Notes under the pieces: generated by a model
The model's input: the letters and a program-made list of their open reading frames with translations, nothing else
Databases searched by the model: none
Told to the model about the DNA's origin: nothing
Program-made: the position numbers and the translations under genes
Source of the DNA: Undaria pinnatifida
Taxonomy: Eukaryota; Sar; Phaeophyceae; Laminariales; Alariaceae
NCBI GenBank assembly: GCA_012845835.1
Contig: JABAKD010000006.1
Coordinates: 1,286,116 to 1,350,115, forward strand
Length of the DNA stretch: 64,000 nucleotides
Direction: 5' to 3'
Part shown: positions 16,140-60,345 of the stretch, piece by piece
Layout: each line of letters starts with the position of its first letter
Numbering within the stretch: the first letter of the stretch is position 1

Positions 16140-16460
16140 AGATGTTCACGGGTTGGATCGCTTCTCCCGGGTCGGGTCTGGCCAGGGTGACCCGACCCGG
16201 CCCGTGAGATTTGAAAACCTCCTGAACCGACTCGACCCGACCCGACCCGACCCGACCCGACCCGGCCCGGCCCGACCCGACCCGACGCGACCCGACCCGA
16301 CCCGACCCGACCCGACCCGACCCGACCCGACCCGGCCCGATCCTCCTCATCCCGCTCGACCTGGCCCGTGAGATTTCGAACACTTCTTGACCCGAACCGA
16401 TTATATCCGCTTTACGTGTCAAGCACCTCCTGACCCGACCTCACCCGTGAAAACTCTTTC
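16140..16460. repeat. CCCGA element with an expanded satellite core
   Basis: Starts TTCACGGGTTGGATCGC and carries a long run of the 5-base unit CCCGA (about 16225-16335) before further CCGTGAGATTT blocks and a GACCTCACCCGTGAAAAC end. Same family as 14346 and 19395. It ends immediately beside the stop codon of the next gene. Confidence 0.75.
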
Positions 16461-19394: not shown

Positions 19395-19612
19395 CAGGGG
19401 TTTTCACGGACCGGATGATATCTCGCGGGTCAGATCGGGTGAGGATGAGCCGGCCCGACCCGTGAGAGTATAAGGCCTCCTGACCTGACCCGACCCGACC
19501 CGACCCATGGATGTCAAACACCTCGCTGACCCGACCCGACCTGACCCACAAGTTTTTGAAAATCTCCTGACCCAGCCTGCCGGCTGGGTTATGACCCGTA
19601 CCGGGTGCCCGT
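19395..19612. repeat. CCCGA-rich inverted-repeat element
   Basis: TTTTCACGG at the left, CGCGGGTCAGATCGGG, the CCGACCCGACCCATGG core and GGGTTATGACCCGTACCG at the right. The arms are complementary. Same family as 16140 and 20632. Confidence 0.65.
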
Positions 19613-20182: not shown

Positions 20183-20446
20183 ACGCGTTCTACGATAGAG
20201 GCGCACCACTTTTTTTTTGAGGTTCCTCAATTTGGGAGCTTAAGACATGACCCTCCCAAAAATTGATTTGGAGGAAAATAAAACTGCTATGATACCGGGT
20301 GAAAAATCCCACGGCCTCTAGGTAAGCAACGAGATATTCATGCAGAAAGAATTGCCTATTTCCGACGATTTTGGATTAAGGAACTCTGTCATTCAGAAAA
20401 CATTCCTTTCAGACGAAAAGTGCTACCTCTATCGTAGAATGCGTCT
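20183..20446 (+). mobile_element. MITE-2 element between duplicated segments
   Basis: ACGCGTTCTACGATAGAGG at the left and complement of ACGCATTCTACGATAGAGG at the right. Inner GGAGCTTAAGACATGACC, ATTGATTTGGAGG and TTCCGACGATTTTGGATT match the copy at 13013. No clear target duplication, because the flanks are themselves duplicated. Confidence 0.8.
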
Positions 20447-20449
20447 CTG

Positions 20450-20640
20450 TACGTGCTAGCTCATGTTGCCGGGCGGGACCTGTACGATCTGCATGAGCTG
20501 TAGCACATGCTTCCTGGGTTAGATCTACACGTAATGATCCCGCACGATATGTCATAACGGTCGGTACAGGATCTAGATGATCTAGATGATCTAGGTCGTA
20601 ATATGTCGGAGATGTGAAGTATCAGGGCTTTTCGCGGGTC
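20450..20640 (+). repeat. GATCTGCATGATCTA segment, right copy
   Basis: Second copy of 19930-20165, with an expanded GATCTAGATGATCTAGAT microrepeat at 20571-20598. It passes directly into the next CCCGA element. Related GATCTATATGATCT words occur at 57950-58205. Confidence 0.7.
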
Positions 20641-20845
20641 AGATCGCTTCTCGCGGGTCGGGCCGGATCAGGATGACCCGGCCCGACCCGGGACATTTGA
20701 GAACCTCCTGGTCCGACCCCACCCGATCCGACCGGTGAGATTTCGAACACCGCCTGACACGACCCGACTCGACCTTCGAGGTCTTAAAAACCTCATGACC
20801 CGACCCGCGGGCGGGGTCATGAGCCGCGAAAAGCCCTGTGAAATA
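20628..20845. repeat. CCCGA-rich element with clear inverted ends
   Basis: Left end AGGGCTTTTCGCGGGTCA and right end complement of AGGGCTTTTCGCGGCTCA make an inverted repeat. The interior has GACCCGGCCCGACCCGGG and CCTCATGACCCGACCC. This copy defines the family ends best. Confidence 0.75.
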
Positions 20846-20917: not shown

Positions 20918-21538
20918 TCACCTTGTGAAAAACAGGGGGCCGACAACGCCCGCTTGGTGCCTCCACGACCCCTGCTTCGCCGCGGCCCACCTACCCGTAC
21001 CCATTCTCCCCCCCTTAACCGCCACCGCCGATCCACCTGGAGAACTAGACCCGAGCGAGAACATAGCCTGGGAGTTCCCGGAACTAATGGTCCGCACTTC
21101 CGGAGACATATCTAATACCGGCGGTAACCTTTTAATCGGGCCTCCGTGGCTTCTTAGAGGCAACATGGACGTTGGTTCTGATCCATGGGGGTAGTGGAAA
21201 GGTAAACCCGAGCTGCTGCTGCTGAGGCCGCCGACAGCACCATCGCCATTGCCGTGACCTCGGTGAGCGCCGTAACCCGCCTGGTTACCTGTGCTGTAGC
21301 CGCTACCAAACCCGCGCAAACGAGACCCTACGCGTCTGCTTCTGATTCTGGTGCTGCCGCCGCCGCCGCCCACGCTCATCGAGCGGTGCCGCTTGTTGGC
21401 GGAGCCTAGGTCTAGCCGCTGTGACCCCTTCGATGGGAGGCGGCGCTTAGGGAGGTGCTTGCTCGGCACTGGTGTGTGAACAGCATAGAAGATGGCCGCG
21501 AGATTCACCGCGTTGTCCATCACCTCCACGGCGAAAAT
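20918..21538 (-). CDS. Terminal exon 5 of the multi-pass membrane protein (gene B)
   Basis: Enters in phase 0 after an AATGAAG acceptor and runs 206 codons to a stop. It starts with a hydrophobic segment (VMDNAVNLAAIFYAV, protein residues about 216-229), taken as the last membrane span. It continues into a long basic, Ser/Gly-rich tail with KRRLPSKG, a poly-Gly run, RIRSRRVGSR and poly-Ser. A tail of this kind after the last span is usually cytoplasmic. The first 20 or so codons are duplicated in exon 5b at 21541-21753, which supports both frame and boundary. The acceptor lacks a pyrimidine tract, so the start here is less certain than in 5b. An ATG six bases upstream could also make this a separate gene. 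Confidence 0.55.
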   Translation of the reverse strand: MFAVEVMDNAVNLAAIFYAVHTPVPSKHLPKRRLPSKGSQRLDLGSANKRHRSMSVGGGGGSTRIRSRRVGSRLRGFGSGYSTGNQAGYGAHRGHGNGDGAVGGLSSSSSGLPFHYPHGSEPTSMLPLRSHGGPIKRLPPVLDMSPEVRTISSGNSQAMFSLGSSSPGGSAVAVKGGRMGTGRWAAAKQGSWRHQAGVVGPLFFTR

Positions 21539-21540
21539 CT

Positions 21541-21753
21541 TCATTTTTTTTCACGTTTGATGGAAGGTTTGTCCGGGGGGTGACGGTAGGGGATGCGGGG
21601 GTTAGGAGGTGAGGGGAGGGTGAGGGGAGGGGCTAGGAGGTGCGGGAGAACGGAGGGGGGAGGGGGGGTTGCTTGCTTGGCACGGGCGCGTGAACGGCCT
21701 AGGAAAATGGCCGTCAGGTTCACCGCGTTGTCTATTACCTCCACATCGATAGT
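21541..21753 (-). CDS. Alternative terminal exon 5b of gene B
   Basis: The acceptor TTATCCACAG is followed by 70 codons in phase 0. The peptide begins VEVIDNAVNLTAIFLG, nearly the same as exon 5, then diverges into a Pro-rich and basic short tail ending KREKK and a stop. The stop lies just before exon 5. Splicing to 5b would give a protein of about 279 residues with a short tail, against 415 with exon 5. It may instead be a dead copy, but it has no internal stop in the homologous part and has the better acceptor of the two. Confidence 0.45.
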   Translation of the reverse strand, partial: TIDVEVIDNAVNLTAIFLGRSRARAKQATPPPPSVLPHLLAPPLTLPSPPNPRIPYRHPPDKPSIKREKK

Positions 21754-21799
21754 CTGTGGATAACTGTTTTTACGTTTAACGAACTGTTTTTCGTGGGGG

Positions 21800-22210
21800 A
21801 GAGGGCGGGGGGGCATGGCGGGGTAGCGCAGGGCGGGGAGGCATTGGGAGGTAGCGGGGGGGGGGGGGGGGGGGGGGGCTATAAGGAGGGTGACGGTACA
21901 ATCTATACATAATTTCCGTATTTGTGGTAATGTTTTTCGGCAGGGGAGGGGGTAGGGGATGAGGGCGGAGGGGTAGGGGGTGAGTTGTACTAATTTCATG
22001 TAGGTCATGACCGCAGTCTTTAGACCATAGAGGTGGGGGGCATGGGGCGGTAGCGGGGGGTACAAGGAGTATCACGGTACGACCTCTGCATTTTCTTTCG
22101 TATTTGCTGTAATATTTATCGGCGAGGAAAGGGGTGGGGGTGGGTTGGTAGGGACTGGGTGCACTCATTCATATCGTGCATAACCGTAGTATGTAGACCG
22201 TAGACCCTCG
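21800..22210 (-). repeat. Duplicated intron segment of gene B, two copies
   Basis: GACC(A/G)TAGA...CATGACC(G)CAGT words and a GGTAATGTTTTTCGGC / GTAATATTTATCGGCG block occur twice, at 21880-22040 and 22060-22205, each beside G-rich tracts, including a G run of about 23 at 21856-21878. Read on the minus strand both give YGL-T-VM words, which hints at a degenerate exon, but no splice-bounded frame survives. Confidence 0.5.
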
Positions 22211-22266
22211 CTGGAGCCCCTCCTCCCCCCCGCCCCCCCGCCCGCCTATCCACCCCAACTGCTCAC

Positions 22267-22380
22267 CGGCGTTTGATGAAGACGCCCCCCAATTTTGGCG
22301 AGCGCAAGCCCCGCAGTAACTATTGTCATTGCTAAGGAAGCTACCACGGCGGTAATGCTTCTGTCCACTTTCGTTGTGAT
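22267..22380 (-). CDS. Exon 4 of the multi-pass membrane protein (gene B)
   Basis: The acceptor CGACTCGCAG, preceded by a pyrimidine-rich stretch, and the donor CCG|GTGAGC bound exactly 114 bases (38 codons), phase 0 in and out. The peptide begins ITTKVDRS and then a strong transmembrane-like stretch, ITAVVASLAMTIVTAGLALA. Two extra copies lie at 22822-22917 and near 23050-23117. The phase fits exon 3 before it and exon 5 or 5b after it. Confidence 0.65.
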
Positions 22381-22520
22381 CTGCGAGTCGTGCCGTGCAT
22401 AATAGCGGACGCGGTTAAAGAAGGGGGGTGAGGGGCCCAGGCGAGGGCATGTTGGTAAACGTCTGTGTGCGAAACAAACCATTTGTCCTTTTTGTTCCGT
22501 TGAATGTTGGTTGATCTTAC

Positions 22521-22774
22521 GAGTGATTCTGCGATAGCCCCCCCCCAAACCAGCGATTTTATTTCAACGAATGTATCACGGCTGCTCGACACAAGGAAGA
22601 ATACTTGGTAGTGAAAACAAAAGTATCCACATATTTTCCTGTGTGCAAAGGTCTACCGATCGATGACGTCGGGGTGTCAAGGGACACCGCATTTCAGGAG
22701 ATACGACCGGGAGCTGATTTTGAAACCGGCGATTTCGTTAAACACGTGTTGGGGGAGCTACCTTTGAACGACTC
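22521..22774 (+). mobile_element. MITE-1 element with TTAC target duplication
   Basis: 254 bases, ends GAGTGATTCTGCGATAGCC and complement of GAGTCGTTCAAAGGTAGC, flanked by TTAC at 22517-22520 and 22775-22778. It sits inside an intron of gene B, between exon 4 and its first extra copy. Confidence 0.88.
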
Positions 22775-22821
22775 TTACGTTATTTTTTATGGACGTTTTG
22801 TACAGTATGCATCGTATTTTT

Positions 22822-22917
22822 TTAGGCTATCGCTTTTTCGATTTTGAAGCAGTAAACGATTGTCACTGCCAAGGAAGAGAACGCGACGATAACGCTTTGA
22901 CTCATTTTCATCGTAGT
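22822..22917 (-). pseudogene. Extra copy of gene B exon 4 (4b)
   Basis: The acceptor TGGCTTTCAG is followed by TTMKMSQSVIVAFSSLAVTIV, aligned with exon 4, and then a stop at codon 32. The homologous donor is lost. It keeps its hydrophobic character. As it stands it would end the protein early, so it is either a poison exon or a decayed duplicate. Confidence 0.55.
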
Positions 22918-23049
22918 CTGAAAGCCATGCCGTTTTGTGGACGCTGTCGAAAAAGGCGGGTAAGGGGTCATGATAAGAGGACGCTAGCCGGCGTAGAAAT
23001 ACTTGTTTGGTCAAATAAATTGCATTTTTTTTATATTTTGATGAGTTGG

Positions 23050-23117
23050 TATTGAGTTATTGTATGCTATGCAGGCCATCACGGCAGTGTTTTTTCGGTC
23101 CACTTTTTCGTCGTGAT
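23050..23117 (-). pseudogene. Remnant of a third exon 4 copy (4c)
   Basis: GGTGTACAG followed by ITTKKWTEKTLP and a stop. The start aligns with exon 4, and nucleotide similarity continues over GTGATGGCCTGCATAGC. Clearly broken. Confidence 0.4.
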
Positions 23118-23326
23118 CTGTACACCGTGCCTTGTAGTCGTCGCCGTAAAGAAAGGCGTGCGCAGAGTCGGGGTCCGGCGATGATATGACCTGTCTGTTT
23201 GCTTTATCTTTTCAGCAGCAATTTCATGCGGCCTACCTTGATAGAAAAACGCGGTACGAAAATATATAAAAAGTATAGATCCCCGCTTTTGGTCGCTTGT
23301 TAGTCCATGTTTCCAGCAATTCCACG

Positions 23327-23535
23327 GGCAGGGTCACCACTCGCGGGTCGGGCAGGAATCAGGCTGACCCGACCCGATCCGATCCGACTCGTGAGATTTG
23401 AAAATCACCTGACCCGACCCAACCCGCCCCATGAGACTTTCTGGGCCGATCTGACTTAGCCCGTGAGAGTTTAGAAACCTCCTGACCAGGCCGGCGGGTC
23501 GGGTTATGACCGTCAAAAGCTCTGGATGTTTGTTA
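23327..23535. repeat. CCCGA-rich element
   Basis: CCACGGGCAGGGTCACC at the left, GACCCGACCCGATCCGATCC inside and GGGTCGGGTTATGACCGTCAAAAG at the right. In an intron of gene B. Confidence 0.6.
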
Positions 23536-23547
23536 CTTCCAGATATT

Positions 23548-23915
23548 TTCACGGCTCAGGTCAAAACCTCGCGGGTCGGGTCGGGGGGTCCGACCCGACC
23601 TGTGATATTCCAATACCCTTCTGAGCCGACCCCACCCGACACGGGATATTTCAAAACCTCTTGACCCTACCCGACCCGACCCGATCCGTCATATTTCAAA
23701 CCCTCAGGACCCGATCCGACCTGACCCGTGAGAGTTTGAACACCTCCTGACCCGACCCGACCCGCGACGCTCCGAATGACCTGTGAGATGCAGATCATGT
23801 CACGGGTCGGGTCGATTTGATCCGCGAGATTTTTTCTCCCGAGCAACGGGTTCGGCCCGTGGATCCAACCCGCGGGCCGACACTTCGAAATGGTTAAAAG
23901 CCTGTGTTTTAGTCG
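23548..23915. repeat. CCCGA-rich element, longer copy
   Basis: TTTTCACGGCTCAGGTCAAAACC, alternating GTGA(G/T)A(T/G)TTCAAA and CTGACCCGACCC blocks, ending TTAAAAGCC at 23905-23913. The block GAGATTTCAAAACCTC-CTGACCCGACCC works as a sub-unit of about 45 bases. Confidence 0.6.
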
Positions 23916-24059
23916 CCCACGGCGATAAATGACCTGGATGTAATGGGTATGGATGCAGTTGGACATATATATACACATTTGGAGGCGTTTTAACGTACGA
24001 ATATCATAATATTGAAGGAGCATCAGCACCACAGAGGGCCTCGGATAGGAAACAGTTAA

Positions 24060-24520
24060 AAACTTTCATGTGGTGGGTCCGCGGGTCACATCTACAGCCT
24101 CTACCCGCAGGTCAGAAGAAACCCGCCCTCGTGTCAAAGTGGCCCGACCCATGACGTGACCCGTACCTCGCGGAGCATGACACGACCCGAACCGACCCGC
24201 GAGATTTCAAAACCTTTGGACCCAACCCGACCCGACCCGACCCGTGAGGTTTCAAAATATTTTGACGCGACGCGACTCGACCCGACCCGACGCGTGTCCG
24301 CAGGTCTGAAGAAAAGCAACCCTCGTGTCAAAGTGGCCCGACCCATGACATGACCTGTACCTCGCGGGTCATGATCATGACACGACCCGACCCGACCCGC
24401 GAGATTTCAAAACCTTTTGACCCGACAAAATCCGACCCGACCCATGAGGTTTCAAAACCTATTCGCCCGACCTGACCCGATCCGTGAGAGTTCAAACCTC
24501 TTGATCCGTGAAACGCCCTG
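24060..24520. repeat. Two tandem CCCGA-rich elements
   Basis: Near-identical halves: AAGTGGCCCGACCCATGACGTGACC at 24136 and AAGTGGCCCGACCCATGACATGACC at 24332, each followed by CGCGG, ATGACACGACCCGA and GAGATTTCAAAACCTTT. The unit is about 196 bases. Frames on either strand here are repeat products. Confidence 0.7.
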
Positions 24521-25640
24521 GTTATTTTGACGGTTTGTTTGCATGCGTCGCACTTTCTAGGGCCTTATTTTTTTTTCGTTAACCATATAAACGAAAGGGT
24601 GGTGGGGCGAGCGAGCGGGCGGGCGGGCGGGCGGACGGACGGACGAGTGGGTCATCAAGCTCAACGCTTGTGCATGCATGTGCAGTTGGGTCCAACTAAC
24701 CGGGAAATGAAATCCCCTGCCATACTCAGCAGAACCTTTGCCATTGCTCAACAGGACCCGAAGTCGAGAGGCGCCTGCCGGCTGGAGTTGTAGGGAAAGC
24801 AGAAACGCCACCGCCTGATATCCGGGTGAGGGTTTTTTGGCAGGTGCACCGGCCAACGGGGGGGGGGGGGGGGGGGGGAGGGGTCGTATTAATTCGTTGC
24901 GCGGCCTCAGTCGTTTGACCACTGACCGCGCATCCCTTTCGAGACGGAGCAAAAGAGGGAGATGCAGTAGTCCTAAAATTCATGGCTTTAGTCCTAGGAC
25001 CATGGTACCTCGGGCAAGAAAATTAACTCTAAATTGATTTCGAGTTTGTCGCCGCCGAGCTACCTGAGCCAATGATTGTCAACACGCTGTAGCTGGTAAA
25101 GCGAAATGTCTGACAAACAAAACATGAAAACGTGTGGGTTGCCACCGAAAATGCTTTACACTGGAGGCAGGGGGAAACGTTGGTGAAGAGCACGGGGGGC
25201 ACCCAGGAGTCGAAAGCGCGTTTTCCCAGGTAGAGCCGATGTTGAGACCGCGCAAGTGACCTTGTGAACAACAACACCTCCACCGCCGCCGCCGCCACCA
25301 CCACTACTACCAACACTAACACAACCGCTACGACAGCAACCACCATATGCACCACTTCACCTTCCCCCACTCTTATCCCCCACACCTCCACCTTCACTTC
25401 CCTCCACCTCCACCTCCACCCACCAACGCCCTCCAAACCCCCGCGCGAGGTGCACGCGATGTGTGCCTGATCGGTGACAACCCGACGTGCTCCGTCCTGG
25501 CATTGTAAGGATAAGAGGGGCCATGGTCATACGACTACGACTATTCATGAAATGAGTACACCGCCGCCCACCTCGCCGCCTCCCCCTCCCCCCCCCCCCC
25601 ACCACTCCCCGCCTGCTTCCCACGTCTCGCACCGCCGAAC
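24521..25640. other. Large intron of gene B with simple repeats
   Basis: Holds GGGC/GGAC tetranucleotide runs at 24608-24645, a G run at 24859-24878, CCACCGCCGCCACCACC-type repeats at 25275-25440 and 25560-25605, and at 25445-25515 a reverse copy of the 53340/53590 repeat. On the minus strand 25030-25260 is open for about 75 codons (GKRAFDSWVPPVLFTNV), a possible cryptic exon, but no fitting splice pair was found and gene B does not need it. Confidence 0.35.
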
Positions 25641-25649
25641 AGACCTTAC

Positions 25650-25735
25650 CAGAAAGTTTTCATGATGAGCTGTATGCTCCACTTCGAGCGGAAACAAGCA
25701 CGGTGAAATGTGGCAAACATCGCGGGCCATTGATA
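25650..25735 (-). pseudogene. Partial extra copy of gene B exon 3 (3c)
   Basis: About 85 bases match the 3' half of exon 3 and read RACFRSKWSIQLIMKTFW against exon 3's RLSWSMQLITETFQ. They end at an excellent donor, CTG|GTAAGG. The 5' half and an acceptor are missing, replaced by a TGG-rich minisatellite. Confidence 0.5.
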
Positions 25736-25739
25736 CCTT

Positions 25740-25980
25740 TTTCACCGCCACCACCACCACCATCGCGACCACCATTTCCACCAACACCAATACTAATACC
25801 AACACTAACACCAACACCATCAACACCGCCAACATGGCAACACCACCAACACCACCAACACCAATACCACCACCACCACCACCACCAACACCAACATCAT
25901 CACCAACGCCAATCCCCGCAACCATCACCACCACCGCCGCCACCACCACCACCCCAACCCCCCCCCACCACCACATCACC
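25740..25980. repeat. CCA-rich minisatellite
   Basis: Irregular CCACCA and CCAACACCAA units fill the space between exon 3 and its partial copy. The 103-154 codon plus frames and the 176-codon minus frame across it are low-complexity products. Confidence 0.8.
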
Positions 25981-26002
25981 CCTCTTGCTAAACACACCGT
26001 AC

Positions 26003-26192
26003 CTGAAAGGTTTCCGTGATGAGCTGCATGCTCCAACTCAAGCGAAACGCGGCGGGTTCGAAGTGCGACGTACACCGCGGCCCATCGATTCCAGCTTTTT
26101 CTTGCTCCGCCGTAATCATGAGCTCGTCTACTACGAGCGTTCCCCAGTTAAGGGCAGTGAGCAATAGACCTAGCCATCTAAATTGCTTCCAT
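26003..26192 (-). CDS. Exon 3 of the multi-pass membrane protein (gene B)
   Basis: The acceptor CGTTCAAGCAG and donor CAG|GTACGG bound 190 bases, phase 2 in and phase 0 out (63 full codons). The peptide starts WKQFRWLGLLLTALNWG, whose hydrophobic part (residues about 113-134) is a likely membrane span. It continues through a loop with a Cys and acidic residues and ends with the amphipathic RLSWSMQLITETFQ. Entry phase fits exon 2, exit phase fits exon 4. A broken copy lies upstream at 27240 and a partial one downstream at 25650. Confidence 0.65.
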
Positions 26193-26424
26193 CTGCTTGA
26201 ACGACGCATGGTTTGCACCCAACAGGAAGGCACGCATGCACGGGAGACCAAGAGCGTTCCGTGATCAGAAGAAATGTTGCGGGAGGCGTTTCACCCGGAA
26301 GATTTTCGTTCACCCTTTTGACGAAAAATGAAGACGAAAATGCAACCCATGGCCTAGTGGTCACTGTGAGTACGAAAGATTGAATGGTTGTAACTTAAAT
26401 TCGCAATTTGGGTTTACTGTCTTA

Positions 26425-26765
26425 TAAAAACGGATAGTAGAGACATTCTACGGTCGGGGTGCACCATTTTTATTTCCATCTGCAACCCCCTCGCTTAAGG
26501 AGTTTTTTTTTTGTTTTTTTGTTTTTTTTTCTATCCTTTTCACCACAATATAAACTGGTTTTATTTTTTGGGGGGGGGGAAGCTAAAAGTTCTGTACATG
26601 TGCCCGATGAAATAGTCAATTCCACGGCTTTAGCTAGCTAGGTATATAATCGAAAATTGCTGCAAAAAAAGGAACGAAAGTTCCGACGACTTTGGGTCAA
26701 GGAGCCGAGTCATTCAGAAAACGCCTCACGAAAAAAACTTTCTCCTCTATCGTTTAGCGCGTCAA
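26425..26765 (+). mobile_element. MITE-2 element, enlarged diverged copy
   Basis: ACATTCTACGGTCGGGGTGCACC at the left, CGCTTAAGGAG with T runs, AATTCCACGGCTTTAG, TTCCGACGACTTTGGGTC and CTCCTCTATCGTTTAGCGCGT at the right. T-run expansion explains the greater length. In the intron between exons 2 and 3 of gene B. Confidence 0.7.
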
Positions 26766-27230
26766 CATGGAAAAACGCACAAAGGGAGTTCCAGCAATCA
26801 ATATTGTCTAGCTTTTTAGCTGACCCTCTTTGGGGCTCCAGAGGGAAAAAGTGGCGATGCAAAATCAATAATTAAAGCATCGTGCACTGCTGATTGGAGG
26901 GTGATAAACATTGGTGTCCGAAGTACAACAAACAATGCGAGCCTTTAATGGGTCGCCGCACAGGACGGGTGCGGCGTAATCCTACCCGCCGTGCTGTTCG
27001 CTCACACTAATCGTGGAAGCTTGAAAATGTCGCAATCACCGCTTTTTTAGTCGTTTTTGTGGGCCCCAAAGTGGTCAGAAGCCCCAACAGTCGCAAGGGT
27101 TTTCCACGAAAAAGAGGCGATGTCATAAACCTATCGTAGCAGGCGTCAAGACCGGGCATCTAACCCGAAAGAAATGCGCCTGCTCTCAACTCGAGGTAGA
27201 CTATTCAAAAACCTTCTTCGTCCGTGGGTG
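26766..27230. other. Intron stretch of gene B
   Basis: No exon or repeat recognised with confidence. AAAGCATCGTGCACTGC and a GGGTGCGGCG segment only. Confidence 0.3.
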
Positions 27231-27235
27231 CGTGA

Positions 27236-27330
27236 GAGGCCTAGCCATTAAACTCGATATTTCCATCTGCTCGAGAGAGGCATCTGGCATCACCACGCGC
27301 ACGGGAGACCAAAAACAACTCGAAAAGAAC
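27236..27330 (-). pseudogene. Broken extra copy of gene B exon 3 (3b)
   Basis: The intron end GGTCTCCCGTGC...CGAGCAG and the first 30 bases of the exon align with exon 3 at 26160-26250. In the exon 3 frame it reads WKYRV and then stops. Homology fades soon after. The shared flanking intron sequence shows that the duplication included intron DNA. Confidence 0.5.
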
Positions 27331-27513
27331 GCCCCTCGTGCAGCGCCACGTGGCTCTGCACGGCAGTTGCTTGAGAAACAAGGCCGCACAAAGCAATGCT
27401 CCGTGACGCTAACCGTAGCGGTTCAGGGACAAAGCAACGCAACACAATCAAGCTCTTCCTGTATGCCCTTCCTAGCTGGGGCTGGCTTGGTACGGCGAAT
27501 TGGAGAGGATGAA

Positions 27514-27640
27514 CAGGTGTGCGTTGCTAGGATAGGGGTAGCACTTTTCGACTCAAACATTTTGTGAACGAAGCGTTTCCTTCACCCAAAATCGGCAGAA
27601 AAAAGAAAAAAAAACTGTGTTTTTCAATAATGAACATGTT
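27514..27640. mobile_element. Possible MITE-2 remnant
   Basis: TGCTAGGATAGGGGTAGCACTTTTCGA and AAAATCGGCAGAAAAAAG resemble an eroded MITE-2 end. Weak. Confidence 0.25.
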
Positions 27641-28012
27641 CTGTCCCTAGACTGTGGTGTTTTGGTTCATCCGGTTGCTTTTACTTCTTGAGTTTACACA
27701 AAAAAGGAAAAGAAAATCGGACTGCTCAAGTGAGATGAGCCCCAGAAAAAGAAAAAAACCGGGGTGAACCTTTACGGGAGCATGTGTCGTAGAAAGGTCA
27801 GAGGGCATTGCTCGTGGGCGAGCAGCTGTGGCTGTTGCTGCTGCTGGTGCTGTTGATGTCACCCCATTAACGCATCGCGACTATCTAGTCCGTGGTCGCA
27901 GGACAGGCTAGAACAACTCAGGAGGAGTGGAAGAACACCTCTCATGAAAACAAAAGACAACATACTAGACATTAGTATACACCCCGGAAGAAAATCGCAC
28001 GCGAATCCTAAC

Positions 28013-28157
28013 CTGGGACTGGCTTGGTACAGCGAGTTGGATAGGATGAACAGGTGTATGAAGGTCAACGCGTTGCTCACGGACACGCAGCTGCTCATCA
28101 CCATCGCCAGCGCCACGCAGTCGAACCCCACGATCCCATTGAGCCAATAAGTCAGGC
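28013..28157 (-). CDS. Exon 2 of the multi-pass membrane protein (gene B)
   Basis: The branch-like CTTAACTACC and acceptor CCGGCAG are followed by 145 bases, phase 1 in and phase 2 out, ending at CCCAG|GTTAGG. The peptide begins LTYWLNGIVGFDC and has one long hydrophobic stretch, ALAMVMSSCVSVSNALTFI, with three Cys around it (residues about 73-99). A diverged copy of about the same length lies at 28300-28403. Entry phase fits exon 1, exit phase fits exon 3. Confidence 0.65.
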
Positions 28158-28299
28158 CTGCCGGTAGTTAAGCCGAGCCGCAGCGCATGCAAGGGGGGCG
28201 CGGTTGATGCGAAACACGAAACACCAGGGCTGTGCGTTGGCCGAGAAGCTAGTTGTTAGCTGTATGGGCTGACTGAGTATATGCATTTCCGACCATATA

Positions 28300-28403
28300 G
28301 GAGCTAGCTAGGTATAACAGCTGGCTGCTCATGGACAAGCAGGAGTTCATCACTAACCCCAGCGCCATGCCGTTCAAGTCCAATATCGCAGTTAGCATAT
28401 GAG
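28300..28403 (-). pseudogene. Extra copy of gene B exon 2 (2b)
   Basis: Reads LTHMLTAILDLNGMALGLVM and CLSMSSQLLYLA, aligned with exon 2 and still open. The acceptor CAG is replaced by TTG, and no donor is seen at the homologous place. A hydrophobic reading frame kept open despite lost splice sites suggests fairly recent loss. Confidence 0.5.
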
Positions 28404-28559
28404 TCAGCAAGGAAGCGGTAGGTAAGTCGTTACTGTTAGGGCCGACACGAATGGCCGAATCCGACCGCTACATGGGAGGCAGTTCTTGGGCCCCCAAAAA
28501 GGTATACCCTCGGTCCGATTCAGCTCCTCAAGCGAGGAACTACGGGTTAGTCATTCATC

Positions 28560-28700
28560 AAGTAAGTAATTTTAAGAGTACGTTGTATTTTTCTTTCACT
28601 AAGGCATTGAAGCATTGGTCGGGTTGTGCGAACGAAGAACGCCTTCGAAATTGTTTTCTTCGGGTGAGATATTGAGCTCCTCCTGTGAGCTGCACCCCTA
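28560..28700 (+). repeat. Dispersed repeat shared with 2715-2889
   Basis: TTGGTCGGGTTGTGCGAACG, GGGTGAGATATTGAGCTCC and GAGCTGCACCCCTACC align with the reverse of 2715-2889. In the first intron of gene B. Confidence 0.5.
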
Positions 28701-29440
28701 CCTACCATGGGACTTTTTTTGCAATCTTAATCTATTTGCACCTCTTAACATTATTCTAGTCTAACTCCAAGTGTTTTGTCTGTGTCGGGAGTGCGGTGCT
28801 AAAAGAGTTAAAGCTCATGGGCTTTCGGTTCGCGACGTGTACCGCCGCCTTGGAATAAATAGCTCGCTTCGCTGCGCCGTCGAAACAAGTTTTTTTTCAA
28901 GTCCGTTTACTACTTCCTGGCAACACGTTTGTAGGACATTTTTTTCCTTGTAATTAGTGTAGGAAGGGGTTTGGAGGCTCGGAAGGTGTTGATAACCGAG
29001 CCACTGAGCCGCTTGCGCGAGTGAGACTGAGTCCTGTTCTCCCAATCAGATAATATTTTGTCGTGCATTGCACACGTCTCATTTTCTTCATTCTATCGAT
29101 TTTATTAATATTTATATTTTCACCTGGCGCCTAATATGGCAGGAGACGGCACGTTGATGTTACGGTACTTCCCTGGGAGCCTAACAAGGCGTAATATGTG
29201 GGATACGGCTGGTTATAAAAGGGTTTCACATGCCTTTGAGGGCATGTGTGTATATGAAAAAGGGGATGGTGATCTTGCCTCGCGGAATTGCACGCTGTTC
29301 AGTTCGTCCGTGGCGTGTGTGGAACTAATACAAGAGTTTATCTAGTACAAGTGAGTGACCAACGAACCTGCCTAGTAGAAAAACCTGCAAAGAGTGGCCT
29401 GTGTCTGTAACAGTCCTTTAATCTTATTTTATAAAACATA
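28701..29440. other. First intron of gene B, no repeat recognised
   Basis: AT-rich. Short frames on both strands without splice support. CTCGCTTCGCTGCG at 28863 resembles ACTCGCTTCGCTCG at 12571 and 46711. Confidence 0.3.
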
Positions 29441-29446
29441 TTTCAA

Positions 29447-29515
29447 GGACGTCAGCCGTGAGTTCGACGAATTTCAGGTCAATACTCATCTTTGTAAGCT
29501 TCGTTGTTGGTACTT
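29447..29515 (-). repeat. VELTADV motif repeat, copy 4
   Basis: Minus-strand reading LTKMSIDLKFVELTADVLEIC. It stands directly before the 93-bp array. Confidence 0.6.
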
Positions 29516-29589
29516 GTATTGATCTTATTATACGTGGCGTCGTCGGCAGGACGATAAGGGTGGCCTGTGTCTGTAACAGTCCCTTAATC

Positions 29590-30900
29590 TTATTATATTG
29601 ACCCCTTGACCGACGGCAATTTTCCAACAAATCACCTTGATTGACCCCAAACTACCAGCTTTTAGTGTAGGATATATGGAGACGGCACTTTCAGCCTCGA
29701 CCGACGGCAACTTTCCAGCAATTCACCTTGACTGACGCCAAGCTACATTTTTTGGTGTGGGATATATCGGGGGACGGCACTTTTAGCCCTTGACCGACGG
29801 CAATTTTCCAACGATTTACCTTGACTGACCCCAAATCACTAGCTTTTAGTGTGGAAGATGTCGGCAAACGGCACTTTCAGTCCTTGACCGACGGCAATTT
29901 CCCAATAGTTTACCTTGACGCCAAACTGCTAGGTTTTAGTGTGGAATATGTCGTGAGACGGCACTTTCAGCCTCGACCGATGACTACTTTCCAACAGTTC
30001 ACCTTGATTGACGCCAAACTACCAGGTTTCAGTGTGGAAGATGTCGGGGGACGGCATTTTCAGCCCTTGACCGACGGCAATTTTCCAACAGTTACGTTGA
30101 CTGACGCCGAACTACTAGGTTTCAGTGTGGAAGATGTCGGGAGACGGCACTTTCAGTCCTTGTACAACGGCAGTTTTGCAATAGTTTACCTTGACCGACG
30201 CCAAACCGCTAGGTTTTAGTGTGGAAGATGTCGGGAGATGGCACTTTCAGCCCTTGATCGGCGGCAATTTTCCAATAGTTTAGCTTGACTGACGCCAAAC
30301 TACTAGGTTTTAGTGAGGAATATGTCGAGAGACGGCACTTTCAGCCCCAACCGACGGCAATTTTCCAATAATTCACCTTGACTGACGCCAAAATACTAGG
30401 GATTAGGTTGGCATATATCGAGAGACGGCACATTCAGCTCTGGACCGACGGCAATTTTGCGATAATTCACTTTGACTGATGCCAAAACTACTAGACTAGG
30501 TTTTAGCGCGGAAGATGTCGGGAGACGGCACTTTCAGCCCTCGACCCACGGCTATTTTCCAACGATTTACCTCGACTGACGCCAAACTGCTAGGTTTTAG
30601 TGTGAAAGATGTCGGGAGATGGCACTTTCAGCCCTTGGCCACCGGCAACTTTCCAACAAAGTACCTTGACTGACGCCAAATACTATGTTTTAGTGTGGAA
30701 GATGTCGGGAGACGGCACTTTCAGCACTTTCCCGACGCCAATTTTCCAATTTTTTTCCTAGACTGACGCCAAACTACTAGATTTTAGTGCGGAAGATGTC
30801 GGGACACGGCACTTTCAGGCTTTGACCGACGGAAGTTTTCCAATAATTTCCTTTGACTGTCGCCAAACTACTGGGTTCTAGTGTGGAACGATCGGTTTGG
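29590..30900. repeat. 93-bp tandem array, fourteen copies
   Basis: The marker TTTTAGTGTGGAAGATGTCGG recurs at about 29662, 29752, 29845, 29934, 30027, 30118, 30213, 30307, 30402, 30499, 30593, 30688, 30782 and 30875, spaced 89-97 bases apart. Each unit also has GACGGCAATTTTCCAA and CTTGACTGACGCCAAACTA. Stretches are open on both strands because 93 is a multiple of three. The 132-codon plus frame repeats FSVEDVGRRHFQ. Spacing drift breaks the frame, so I call it a satellite in the first intron of gene B, not a gene. Confidence 0.85.
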
Positions 30901-31229
30901 ACGTCTTCGACCGCGAGGCGTTTTCCGTTGACTGATCGCCTCCTGGCATCTTTGCCTGGCGCTGCCATAGTCCGACAATATACCAGGTACTGTATAGCAA
31001 TTGAATATCTTCGCCCTAACGCCCTTGTCATGCAAAACGTGTATATACCAGGCACCACGTATGTTGTTGGTATGCATGTATTTGGTTCTGCAAGTGTGTA
31101 GACAGATATGAAAACGTGAGACACAAAACAAATCACACAAGGACATTTAATTAGCCATTCCAGAGCATGGGTGCCAGCGAATGCCAACACCCATGCGGAG
31201 CCCTTGTAGAGTATGTACAGGTATGTTTT

Positions 31230-31450
31230 CGGATCGCCGATATCGTATTCCATGGAGATATCATACGAGTGCGACAAGCATTTGCCTGAGAAGCAAAGCC
31301 GCACCGCTCATCGCAGACACAGAAGAGCAGTGAGAGGAGGCCAGCTGCGAGCCGAGAAAGGCTGCTATGATATAATAATGTGAACACATGTCATGCTGAT
31401 GGTGTCTTGTACGAGCGCTGCTATCATACTACTTGTACTCTATGTACTGA
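31230..31450 (-). pseudogene. Decayed extra copy of gene B exon 1 (1b)
   Basis: Reads LSRLAAGLLSLLFCVCDERCG, aligned with exon 1's LSGLAASLLSLFFCIYGERYG. The donor GTGAGC of exon 1 is ATGAGC here, and a stop interrupts the upstream part. Nucleotide similarity continues through the flanking CCATGGAGATAT. Confidence 0.5.
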
Positions 31451-31571
31451 CTGTTTTCGTACCGAATCTGATCAGATCACACCAGGTATAGACTATGCAT
31501 AGCGCCATGGAGATATGAGCGAGTACGGCAAAGCATCCGCGTGATAATCCGCAATCAGCCGTAACGCTCAC

Positions 31572-31749
31572 CGTATATACAGAAGAACAGAGAGAGAAGG
31601 CTAGCCGCGAGCCCAGACAGGTTCAGCGCCGAGCTTTTCCGCGCGCACCGCAGAGCGAACCGGGATCCGACAATGCTAGACACGGTGAGGCCTGATGATA
31701 AGGCTGCTACCTCTAAAAACGCCGGATAGGCAGCTCCTGCTGTCCTCAT
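31572..31749 (-). CDS. Exon 1 of the multi-pass membrane protein (gene B)
   Basis: I start at the ATG at 31749 and end at the donor TACG|GTGAGC (phase 1): 59 codons plus one base. The peptide has two hydrophobic stretches, FLEVAALSSGLTVSSIVG (residues about 11-28) and LAASLLSLFFCIY (about 47-59), joined by a basic Arg/Cys/Lys linker. A longer open frame reaches 31875, and an acceptor at 31676 is also possible, so the 5' end is tentative. Joined to exons 2, 3, 4 and 5, the coding length is 1248 bases (415 residues) with every phase compatible. Hydrophobic layout suggests six or seven spans with a cytoplasmic tail, as in receptor-like proteins. No family was recognised. Confidence 0.5.
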
Positions 31750-37324: not shown

Positions 37325-37665
<341 letters not shown>

Positions 37666-38239: not shown

Positions 38240-40275
38240 ACACCCGGGGGTTGGATTCCCACATTGTTCGGGGCGGTATCGACCCGGGGGAACATCGTTT
38301 TTGTCCCCGGGTTTTCGGGGTTGTAGCTATATTGAAAGAATTTTGAACCGGGGATTGTACTCTATCCTCCCCAGGTGGCCCCAGCTGGTATACGAACCTC
38401 ATACAATGAACGATCGAGCGGTGGGCTTAGGGTTTCCACACCTTGCAGGACGGTATCGACCCGGGGGAACTCCATTTTCATCCCCGGTTTGTCGAGGTTG
38501 TAGAGATGTCGAAGGATTTATGAACCGGGGATGGGACCCCATCCTCCCCGAGTGGCGATGGCTCTGCGTACGATCCCCAGCCAACCATCGATCGGCCGAT
38601 GGGGCTGGTACTTCCACGCCGGGCGGGCGGTATTGACAAGGGGAATTTCCGTTTTTGTCCCAGAGTTGTCTGGGTTCTAGATGGTTTGGAAGGATTTCTG
38701 TGCCGGGGATGAGACTCCACCATCTCCGAGAGTTGTCTGGGTTCTAGATGGTTTGGAAGGATTTCTGTGCCGGGGATGAGACTCCACCCTCTCCGCGTGG
38801 CGCTTGCTCTTTTTACAAGCCTCAGCCAATTTTCAACATTTCAACCAGCCAGTGGCGTTGGGGCTTCCCCACCGTGTGGGCCGGTATGGACCCGGGGGAA
38901 CACCGGTTTTGTCCCCGGTTTGTAGGGGTTGTAGATGTATGGAAGAATTTTCAAACAGGGGCGGGATCCTGTCCTCCTCCGGTGACGCTTGTTTCATATG
39001 AGCGCCCTAGCCTACCATCGATTGGCCGGCGGGATTGGGGTTTCCATACTGTGCGAGGCGATATCGATCTGGGGGGGGCTCCTTTTTCGTCCCCAGGTTG
39101 TCAGAGTTGTAGATGCATGAAAGGATTTCCGAACCGCGGATGGGACCTTATCCTCCCCCGGTGACGCTGGTTCTATGTAACAGCCCCAGGCAATCATCAA
39201 CCAGCCAGCGGCGTTGAGATTTCCAAACCGTGCGGGGCAGTGCGACTCAGGGGAGCACCGTTTCCGTGCCCTGGTCGTCGAAGTTGCAAGATACGTAGGG
39301 TTATCTGAACCGGGGGTAGGACTCTACCTTCCTCGGGTGCGGCGGAACTGCCCCCTATTGGTGCGCCTCTATCCTCCCCCGGTGGTGCTCTACGAGCACC
39401 AGCTCCAGCGAATCAGCGATCAACCAATGGGAATGGGGTTTCGACACCATACGGGACGGTGTCTACCCGGGAGAACTCTTTTATTGTCCCAGGAATTTGT
39501 CGGGGTTGTAGCGATATCGGAAGAACTCGTGATCCCGTGATGGGGCCCTATCCTCCCATCCATGGTGACCCTGGCTCTACGCATGAGCTCAGCCAATCAT
39601 AGGTCAGCAGGTGGGTTTGCGGTTTCTACACCATGCGGGGGGGTATCGACCCGGGGTATCTGCTTTTTGCCCCCGGATTGTCCGAGTTGTAGATAGGGAA
39701 GGATTTATGTTCCAGGATTGGCTTCTATCCTCCCCGGGTGGCGCTGGCTTTATGAACGACCGCCAGCCAATGGGCGATCGACCGGTGGGGTGTGAGACTT
39801 CCACACCCTGCGGGGCGGGTCAACCCGGGGATTTACATTTTCGTACACCCCGTGTGGGGGATTATCGACCCGGGAGCATCTTTTTCGTACCCGATTGGTC
39901 AGAATCGTATATATGTAGAAGGGTTATGATCCAAGGATTGGACGGTATCGTCCCCAGGTAACGATGGCTTTATTGACGAGCCTCATCCAACCAGCGATCA
40001 ACCACTGGGGTTTAGGTCTCCACACCGTGCGAGAAAGTTTCAGCCTGGGGGGGCGTTATTGTCGTCCCCGGGGTTTAGGATTTGCAGAAATAAGGAGGAA
40101 ACTGGGGATGGGGCCTCATCGTCCCCGGGTGGTGCTGGCTATACACGCTCTAGCCAATTAGCGCTTTTCACACATTGTGGGGTGGTGTCGACCCGGGAGA
40201 ACTCGGTTTTGGTCCCCGGGCTGTCGGAGTTGTAGGGATATATGAGAATATCTGAACTGGGGATGGGGCCCTATC
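38240..40275. repeat. Satellite array, unit about 177 bp, about twelve copies
   Basis: The marker GGTATCGACCCGGGGGAAC recurs at about 38273, 38451, 38628, 38882, 39059, 39235, 39455, 39641, 39817, 39858, 40035 and 40183. Most steps are 176-178 bases. Each unit also has TCCCCGG(T/G)TTGTC(G/A)GGGTTGTAG, GAACCGGGGATGGGA and CAGCCAA(C/T)CA(T/G)CGAT. A 63-base piece is doubled at 38664-38790. Frames on both strands repeat the same peptide words and are products of the array. Confidence 0.92.
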
Positions 40276-40635
40276 CTTCCCGGGTGCGGCGGGGCTGGGG
40301 GGTTACCCCGAGGGGCAACTATCGCCGCACGCCCGGTGCCCCTCCATTGTTCGGTGGCGGGCGGGGGGGAGGGCTCGGTCAATAGGATTGGAGCTCAGAA
40401 AGCGAAGCAGTCAAAGTAATCCTTATTATGTAACATAAATAAACGGGTAACGGGGTATAACGGTTTGCTGTGCACAATGATGCAGTGAAACTCGGGGATG
40501 GATCCAGGATGTCTCCTGGCAATCACAGGTCTTAGAGTGCCGAATAACAAGAAGCTACCCCAAGCTCCCCAGAGGTCGAAATGCTGGCGGCGCACGACGT
40601 GGCCATTACTTACTGATACCCAAAGGGCCCAAAAC
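40276..40635. other. Junction between two satellites
   Basis: GC-rich CGGCGGGGCTGGGG near 40280, then unique-looking sequence with minus frame 40395-40679 (VSNGHVVRRQHFDLWGAWG) and an overlapping plus frame. Neither has splice support. Confidence 0.35.
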
Positions 40636-41880
40636 GCTTTTTGGGCAAGCTCGTCAGGCGGGGCCGTCACAACACGCACACAGCTTATCTGGACCAGCTG
40701 CCAGATACGGCGCGCCCAACGGAATCTGACAACCTGTGGTGGGGGATGGAGACAAAACGTGGTCGCTACTGTTAATACTTCCCGGAAAACCCAACAAACA
40801 AATGCGCGAGAGCATGACAGTTGACATCCTCACGTCGATCACACAGCTTGTCTCGACCAACTGTTAGAGAAGGAACGCCCACCGGGACCTGCCTCCCCTT
40901 TGGGAGGATACAGCCAAGAACGCAGCCACTGCGTGCTCCAGGAAACCCCAACAATAGTGGACAGACTCCTCAACCGACACCGTCACGCCCAGCTTACAAT
41001 TTTGTCTGGACCAGCTGCTAGAGAAGGCACGCCCGCCGGGACCTGACACCATTTTGGGGGGGGTGGCGAGAATAGCGCGGCCACAACTCACACCCGGAAA
41101 ACCCATAAAAAAAGCATGGCCAAGGTCGCCAGCCAAGACCGTCACGCGTGCGCTCCGCTTTTCTGGACCAGCTGCCGGAAACGATATGCATGCGGGGACC
41201 TTTGACAAGCATCTAGAGGGGATGTTGACAAAGAACGTGGCCAGCATTAGCTCCCAGGAAGCCCAGCAGAATTCGGGCAAGCTCGTGAATCGAGGCTGTC
41301 ACGCCGCGCACCCAGCTTCTTCTTTGGATCAGCGTCTAGAGAAGGCACGCCCGCCGGGGTCTGCCAATTATGTGTGGAGTATGTAGAGAAGAATGCAGCC
41401 ACTACTGTCTCCCGTAAAACCAATAAAAGCATGGCCAAGGTCGCCGGTCAAGACCGTCACGCCGCGGACAAAGCTTCTCTGGACCAGCTGCCGGAAACGG
41501 CACGTCCGCCGGGACCCGACAACCATCTGGGAGTGATGTAGGCAAGAACGTGGCAACTGACAGTTCCCGGGAAGCAAAAAACAAGAATCGGGCAATCTTG
41601 TGAATCGGGGTCGTCACACCGCGCACGCAGCTTCTCTGGGCCAGCTCCCAGAGGCGGTACGCCCGCCGGGACCTGACAACCATTTGGCGGGGGTGGAGAC
41701 AAGAGCGTGGACATTGTTACTAGCTTCTGGGCATCCAAACGAAAACCGAGCAGGCTTGTCAACTGAGGCCTTTATACAGCGCATTCAGCTACGCTGAAAC
41801 AGCTTTCGGAGATGGCACGCGTGCCGGGGTTTGGCAAGCGTTCCGGGAGGATCGAGAAAAGAATTTTCGCGATGGTTCGC
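40636..41880. repeat. Satellite array, unit about 157 bp, eight copies
   Basis: The marker CTCTGGACCAGCTGCCAGAG recurs near 40690, 40848, 41005, 41162, 41326, 41478, 41634 and 41790 (steps 152-164). Each unit also has GGCACGCCCGCCGGGACCTG, a GGGGGTGG(A)GACAAGA word and CCCGG(A)AAACCCA. The numerous overlapping minus frames here are repeat products. Confidence 0.92.
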
Positions 41881-59723: not shown

Positions 59724-59739
59724 CTGCCGGGGCGGCAGG

Positions 59740-60345
59740 GCCAAATCAGGCGAGAAAAAGCATTAGCCATAAACAACAAGTACATACATAACTAAGAAAA
59801 AACGGTCATCTCTTGTAGATACCACGACGGATAATAAGGAACCAAAAGCCAAATCAGGCGAGAAAAAACGTTAGCCATGAGCAATAAGTATTACATGATA
59901 CAACTAAGCGAAAACGGTCAACCCTTCTAGGTACCACTAGGGAAAATTAAGGGACCAAGGGCCAAATCAGGCGAGAAAAAACATTAGCCATAAGCAATAA
60001 GTATTACATGATATAACTAAGCAAAAACGGTCAACCCTTTTAGGTACCACTACGGATAATCAAGGGACTAAGGGCAAAATCAGGCGAGCGAAAACATTAG
60101 CCATAAGCAATAAGTATTACATGATATAACTAAGCAAAAACGGTCAACCCTTTTAGGTACCACTACGGATAATCAAGGGACTAAGGGCAAAATCAGGCGA
60201 GCGAAAACATTAGCCATAAGCAATAAGTATTACATGATATAACTAAGCAAAAACGGTCAACCCTTTTAGGTACCACTACGGATAATCAAGGGACTAAGGG
60301 CAAAATCAGGCGAGCGAAAACATTAGGCTTTAATCAAGAAATAGT
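59740..60345. repeat. 113-bp tandem array, five to six copies
   Basis: AAATCAGGCGAGCGAAAACATTAGCC then AAGCAATAAGTATTACATG and AAACGGTCAACCCTTTTAGG. The units at 60068-60180 and 60181-60293 are identical over their length; the earlier ones (from about 59740, 59850, 59960) differ slightly and use GAGAAAAA. Recent expansion at the right end. In the intron between gene C exons 2 and 3. Confidence 0.92.

Follow-up and report, generated by a model that had tools for sequence, protein, structure and literature searches.

Partial and decaying same-strand copies beside the proposed exons of a putative membrane-protein gene in the brown alga Undaria pinnatifida

We analyzed a stretch of 64,000 nucleotides from the genome of Undaria pinnatifida (assembly GCA_012845835.1, contig JABAKD010000006.1; C55:1286116-1350115 in our coordinates; hereafter, the window) and found that all five proposed exons of a gene on its reverse strand are accompanied by partial copies of themselves in the adjacent introns. 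The copies are decayed and lie in direct orientation, and similar copies occur beside some control exons and in non-exon DNA. We propose that they are probably dead by-products of short, local, same-strand duplication acting across the genome, and that the gene represents an extreme case of an ordinary process. A preliminary description of the window had reported a copy beside every exon and suggested that the copies could feed mutually exclusive splicing; the first of these claims held, with one copy marginal and exon 4 lacking confirmation from a paralogue, and the second did not gain support. Exon and copy coordinates are given throughout as window positions.

The structure of the gene was examined by searching its joined exon translations against the 511-Mb genome that contains the window. 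The search recovered the window exons and a single paralogue, located 6.6 Mb away on the same contig (at 7.93 Mb), which matches exons 1, 2, and 3 in the correct order at about 43-50% protein identity (exon 1, C55:7931102-7931275, 43%; exon 2, C55:7933948-7934100, 50%; exon 3, C55:7935726-7935929, 42-43%). The counterpart of exon 5 is weaker, an in-frame stretch at 7953188-7953445 that is 52% identical over 23 residues (E = 0.001). A search of the paralogue region for exon 4 reached a best score of 40, against 40, 41, and 47 for the top three of 20 shuffles; because no paralogue match beat the shuffles, the membership of exon 4 rests on its open frame and donor. Judged from its hydrophobic stretches, the gene product looks like a multi-span membrane protein. 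Neither the concatenated exon translations nor three further open frames from the window matched a Pfam family, and scans of the window with Rfam (gathering threshold) and for transfer RNA genes were empty. In intron 1 a 94-base unit is repeated 13.7 times as an array (29603-30888).

Smith-Waterman alignment was used to compare each exon with its two 1.5-kb flanks; the null consisted of 124 non-local stretches of that length, of which 60 flank kinase loci of the same genome and 64 come from the window, the latter taken from both strands. Every proposed exon had at least one nearby same-strand copy that outscored all 124 controls. Eight copies in total exceeded every control score, which confirms same-strand exon copies in the adjacent introns above chance, seven of them clear and one, at exon 3 (27237-27283), marginal. 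The score of the marginal copy is 33.0 and the highest null score 29.5; we consider this copy insecure because in a comparable test two control exons, L017 (32.5) and L033 (29.5), likewise beat all of their 98 nulls. A blastn comparison of the region with itself recovered the same pairs except the marginal one; the copies are local and interleaved exon by exon, as the preliminary description had stated, and its positions were correct to within tens of bases. The closest copy of all, that at the downstream side of exon 2 (27476-27520), was absent from its list. A possible continuation of this copy at 27789-27828 is weak, its score being reached by 15 of the 124 nulls. The intervening ~270 bases (27521-27788) may split the copy, and within them 27527-27601 matches 20359-20437 in inverted orientation and could be what is left of a mobile element. 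The similarity runs past the exon boundary into intron sequence at exons 1, 3, and 5.

Table 1 Proposed exons, their copies and a related duplication (window positions).
Feature	Position	Strand	Remarks
Exon 1	31572..31749	-	ATG at 31749; donor after 31572; hydrophobic stretches; from translation and paralogue match
Exon 1 copy (3' part and intron start)	31250..31361	-	Donor GT changed to AT; aligned stretch 31312-31361, 40/50 identical
Upstream exon 2 copy (5' part)	28326..28407	-	60/82 identical; acceptor AG absent
Exon 2	28013..28165	-	5' limit approximate; from translation and paralogue match
Downstream exon 2 copy (3' end)	27476..27520	-	41/45 (91%) identical; donor lost
Upstream exon 3 copy (5' part), marginal	27237..27283	-	34/44 identical; in-frame stop
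Exon 3	26003..26240	-	5' limit approximate; from translation and paralogue match
Downstream exon 3 copy (3' part)	25638..25743	-	Aligned stretch 25652-25743, 71/91 identical; 3 frame-shifting gaps; donor kept; microsatellite upstream
Second exon 4 copy	23058..23156	-	74/97 identical; 5 frame-shifting gaps
Exon 4 copy	22849..22967	-	89/117 identical; 4 frame-shifting gaps
Exon 4 (proposed)	22267..22440	-	Hydrophobic open frame with donor; no paralogue counterpart found
Further adjacent tandem duplication, intron before exon 5, non-coding	21852..22204	-	21852-22031 against 22028-22204
Exon 5 copy, adjacent tandem (5' part and upstream intron)	21664..21877	-	Aligned stretch 21664-21755, 73/91 identical; frameshift and stop
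Exon 5 (last exon)	20918..21548	-	5' limit approximate; from translation and weak paralogue match

A second full-length gene from which the copies derive, a source that the preliminary description had allowed for, did not emerge from the genome search: the comparisons support the view that the only paralogue found did not supply the copies, those of exons 1 and 5 matching the local exon far better in DNA. Exon 1 agrees with its own copy at 40 of 50 bases, but in the best local alignments of either with exon 1 of the paralogue or with the copies there only 8-16 bases agree. For exon 5, alignment with its own copy reaches a score of 95.0 and alignment with exon 5 of the paralogue 42.0. The paralogue has local copies of its own, two of exon 1 (at 7932064 and 7932675) and one of exon 5 (at 7953048), and by their DNA the copies in the two paralogues arose separately. 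Where it can be measured, at exon 4 of the gene and exon 1 of the paralogue, the copies resemble the exon more than they resemble one another, with 89/117 and 74/97 bases identical between exon 4 and its copies against 38/54 between the copies, and 102/122 and 66/79 between the paralogue's exon 1 and its copies against 54/69. This is expected if a slowly changing exon was copied repeatedly and the copies then drifted.

The graded decay noted in the preliminary description was borne out in these partial copies. Aligned in the frame of the exon, four of the eight contain frame-shifting gaps (downstream exon 3, both exon 4, and exon 5) and two contain in-frame stops (upstream exon 3 and exon 5), five having one or both of these defects and three neither (the copy of exon 1 and the two of exon 2). 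All three frame-intact copies have lost a splice site, the donor in the exon 1 and downstream exon 2 copies and the acceptor AG in the upstream exon 2 copy. Splice sites were inspected in four copies, the fourth of which, downstream of exon 3, retains its donor; the set as a whole keeps neither the reading frame nor, in the four copies judged, both acceptor and donor. In a copy maintained as coding sequence, we would expect differences to be concentrated at third codon positions far more strongly than in a dead copy of a maintained exon, in which the excess should be mild. Across the eight copies, differences at codon positions 1, 2, and 3 number 40, 39, and 56 (of 207, 206, and 204 sites), a third-position excess that is little, and the upstream exon 2 copy has 10, 7, and 5. 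The corresponding counts for copies of control exons are 36, 31, and 63 of 262, 259, and 260 (two rows from L037 left out). Together with the insertions, deletions, and stops, the counts for the gene point towards copies evolving free of coding constraint; the comparison of exon and intron parts given below was not significant.

We assessed how common such copies are with 70 control exons, comprising 30 top kinase matches taken as returned (L015-L044), 20 picked kinase exons (L045-L064), 10 ion-channel exons (L065-L074), and 10 light-harvesting exons (L075-L084). The 40 picked controls are short hits (147-447 bases) without stops, chosen by hand from 135 kinase, 43 ion-channel, and 61 light-harvesting matches. 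They are the preferred set, since some of the long open frames among the top kinase loci, such as L017, look bacterial and may be contamination; the matches of three other top loci (L023, L026, and L039) contain stops. L017 (G000:C45:94795-95541) is a long open kinase frame on a bacterial-looking contig, and the assembly may hold contaminant contigs.

Strict and loose versions of one blastn rule were applied to the gene, the paralogue, and the controls. Local direct copies were found at seven of the 70 control exons under the strict version and at nine under the loose one; by class, they occurred at 4/20 picked kinase exons (five when loose), 1/30 top kinase exons (two when loose), and 2/10 ion-channel exons, and at 6/40 of the short picked controls under the strict version. 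Smith-Waterman alignment gave 5/50 kinase exons with a cut-off (33) that was chosen after the exon-against-null results of the gene had been seen. The kinase exon at L056 1368-1610 has four local copies, on both sides, and marks a second gene of similar appearance, while the ion-channel exon at L069 1370-1633 has three, all on one side. Inverted local copies were found at none of 79 exons (5 in the gene, 4 in the paralogue, and 70 controls). Segments outside exons carried local direct copies as well, at 121/643 in the picked kinase, 93/934 in the top kinase, and 52/287 in the ion-channel loci (10-19%), at 30/155 in the paralogue, and at 96/183 in the gene with its longer-period arrays unmasked; in the rest of the window, arrays included, the figure was 1396/4000. 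Because non-exon segments also have copies, exons are not favoured in general.

The duplications were characterized further in a survey of repeat pairs over 287,266 bases (the window, the paralogue region, and the kinase and ion-channel loci), with simple repeats and arrays of more than 3.5 copies masked and inverted pairs with overlapping arms dropped; the control stretches L065 and L069, and L070 and L072, overlap, so that some pairs are slightly double-counted. Pairs within 1.5 kb were 187 direct and 14 inverted and covered 8.7% of the unmasked bases, while pairs more than 3 kb apart, counted in the window and the paralogue region, were 57 direct and 46 inverted. This short-range direct bias points to tandem-type duplication and not to mobile elements. 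In 15 of 25 pairs examined, a further occurrence of the intervening sequence lies outside one of the two copies (at 1 of 200 or better), a pattern that a tandem unit in decay would leave. Among the gene's own pairs two of five recur, one of them beside a microsatellite; the test used unmasked sequence, in which low-complexity matches such as that of the exon 3 pair count as recurrences. The exon 5 unit adjoins the next unit.

Taking these observations together, the process we favour would copy stretches from tens up to a few hundred bases long within ~1.5 kb on the same strand, striking introns and exons alike. Where it acted repeatedly around a maintained exon, a halo of copies would build up whose frame and splice sites are lost as they drift, and all five proposed exons of this gene would happen to bear such a halo. 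At the level of mechanism, tandem-type duplication would be followed by uneven loss. We read the gene as the extreme of a wider duplication background in the genome, in the upper tail of a genome-wide process, because it was picked for its pattern and because copy number is uneven between loci. The preliminary description had called the pattern unusual, which is apt for the gene's five of five exons but less so for local copies as such, given those at the control exons and in 10-19% of the control non-exon segments.

Several results weigh against this explanation. The gene's score of five of five exons, obtained under both blastn rules, differs from the 6/40 of the short controls with P = 0.00038, and it also exceeds the frequency in the gene's own non-exon segments with arrays taken out (655/2000, or 280/2000 once exon copies are subtracted). 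The paralogue stands at 2/4 under the strict rule (P = 0.15) and 3/4 under the loose rule (P = 0.032), and the light-harvesting exons at 0/10. Most local pairs are spaced, only 21 of 187 being adjacent (gap of 10 bases or less, arrays masked), and 10 of the 25 pairs examined for recurrence showed none at 1 of 200 or better. Copies in the paralogue have a stronger third-position excess, with 10, 12, and 25 differences of 92, 94, and 94 sites. Finally, constraint on the exon alone should leave the exon part of a pair markedly more similar than its intron part, yet over seven pairs spanning an exon edge the two parts were 466/570 and 218/279 identical, respectively (P = 0.23); the difference is small with its sign as expected, and alignments that end where similarity ends inflate the intron part. 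The idea that exon-copy pairs look younger than intron pairs was not clearly supported by this comparison.

Part of this evidence would be accommodated if the gene family were a true hot spot of exon duplication, owing to local chromatin, replication, or recombination features, and not the tail of a distribution. The paralogue was not selected for the pattern, and when it is pooled with the gene, seven of nine exons have copies under the strict rule against 7/60 kinase and ion-channel controls (P about 9 × 10−5), in addition to the probability of 0.00038 for the gene alone. That the gene itself was selected for the pattern, however, reduces the force of these values; the paralogue by itself yields the non-significant strict result and only a weak loose one, and the three or four copies at some unrelated exons indicate that rates vary between places anyway. 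We therefore hold a hot spot to be possible but rather unlikely. A bolder extension, in which unusually active local, direct, and often spaced duplication together with a hot spot in this membrane-protein family, at which each exon would give rise to copies again and again, would constitute a standing nursery of near-exons for the recruitment of alternative exons, seems to us more doubtful still.

Mutually exclusive splicing, whether with the copies as alternative exons or as the decayed remains of a one-per-cluster exon choice such as animal genes have, could draw on the presence of copies at exons 1 and 5 in both paralogues, on the exon 1 and exon 2 copies that are free of frameshifts and stops over the aligned stretch, on the intact donor of the downstream exon 3 copy, and on the third-position excess in the paralogue (10, 12, and 25). 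Against it stand the separate origin of the copies in the two paralogues, the splice sites lost in the three frame-intact copies, the differences in the upstream exon 2 copy, which fall with codon position, and, in the paralogue, frame-shifting gaps in two of its three copies and stops in two of three. The gene's copies are moreover partial, with frame-shifting gaps in 4/8 and stops in 2/8. A function in mutually exclusive splicing is not supported, because of the frameshifts, the stops, the lost splice sites, and the little third-position excess; we consider it very improbable, and on the same sequence features the copies presumably remain unspliced.

Two further explanations are negligible. 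Wrong joining of reads during assembly would produce near-identical duplicates, but the copies differ from their exons by 9-27% of aligned bases and five of the eight contain insertions or deletions. Chance similarity among hydrophobic exons, which the preliminary description had raised as a way in which it might fail, could be entertained for the marginal exon 3 copy, close as it is to the null range, but is contradicted for the other seven, as all eight scores lie above those of the 124 control stretches and, at exons 1, 3, and 5, the match extends into intron sequence.

The window contains other repeats besides those described above. Repeats rich in the pentamers CCGAC/GGGTC occur at 23360-24510, 20600-20830, 16227-16340, and 19395-19598, some with higher periods of 41-45 bases. 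Two clusters of old direct repeats, mostly 65-75% alike and with shortest spacings of ~150-220 bases, lie at 38245-40292 and 40640-41862; a (GTA)n run of 112.7 copies (93% matches) occupies 37327-37663, and an array of 5.3 copies of a 113-base unit occupies 59737-60326.

The locus offers a series of single-exon duplications at differing stages of decay. Exon shuffling in immune-type genes of brown algae is already under discussion, and the suggestion that duplications of this kind are a common background in these organisms bears on claims of adaptive exon duplication. Gene prediction is affected as well, since the copies can mislead exon callers. In listings from the open-access literature we found nothing pertinent on spaced local duplication, and no paper describing dead exon copies of this local kind throughout the genome of a brown alga.

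Comparable systems have been described in animals and in brown algae. Tandemly duplicated exons are reported in ~10% of animal genes, with more than 2,000 unannotated candidates (Letunic et al. 2002, as related in PMC9013439), and the Exonize study, applied to 20 eukaryote genomes, has classes for intronic and for degenerate exon matches (PMC12343006). The copies in the U. pinnatifida gene are like such duplications in lying in neighbouring introns of the same gene, some of them degenerate, and unlike them in that all five proposed exons are affected by copies both incomplete and broken, in an algal genome where local direct copies take up 8.7% of the unmasked DNA examined. In the ROCO genes of brown algae, single leucine-rich-repeat (LRR) exons have been repeatedly shuffled and duplicated (PMC11378527); the repeated duplication of single exons inside genes is common to both, but the ROCO exons encode alternatively spliced repeat units, whereas here we see broken copies of non-repeat membrane-protein exons. 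A search for the ROCO family domain PF16095 found nothing in this genome; as introns were disregarded in it, and as the brown algal COR domain is described in the same paper as missed by InterProScan but found with hmmsearch, this miss is weak evidence. The mutually exclusive clusters of Dscam (PMC1397879) share local exon-by-exon duplication at several positions in the gene but differ from the present gene, in which no intact alternative exon was found. Degenerate local exon duplication is a kind already known, and this gene is a new and rather extreme example of it.

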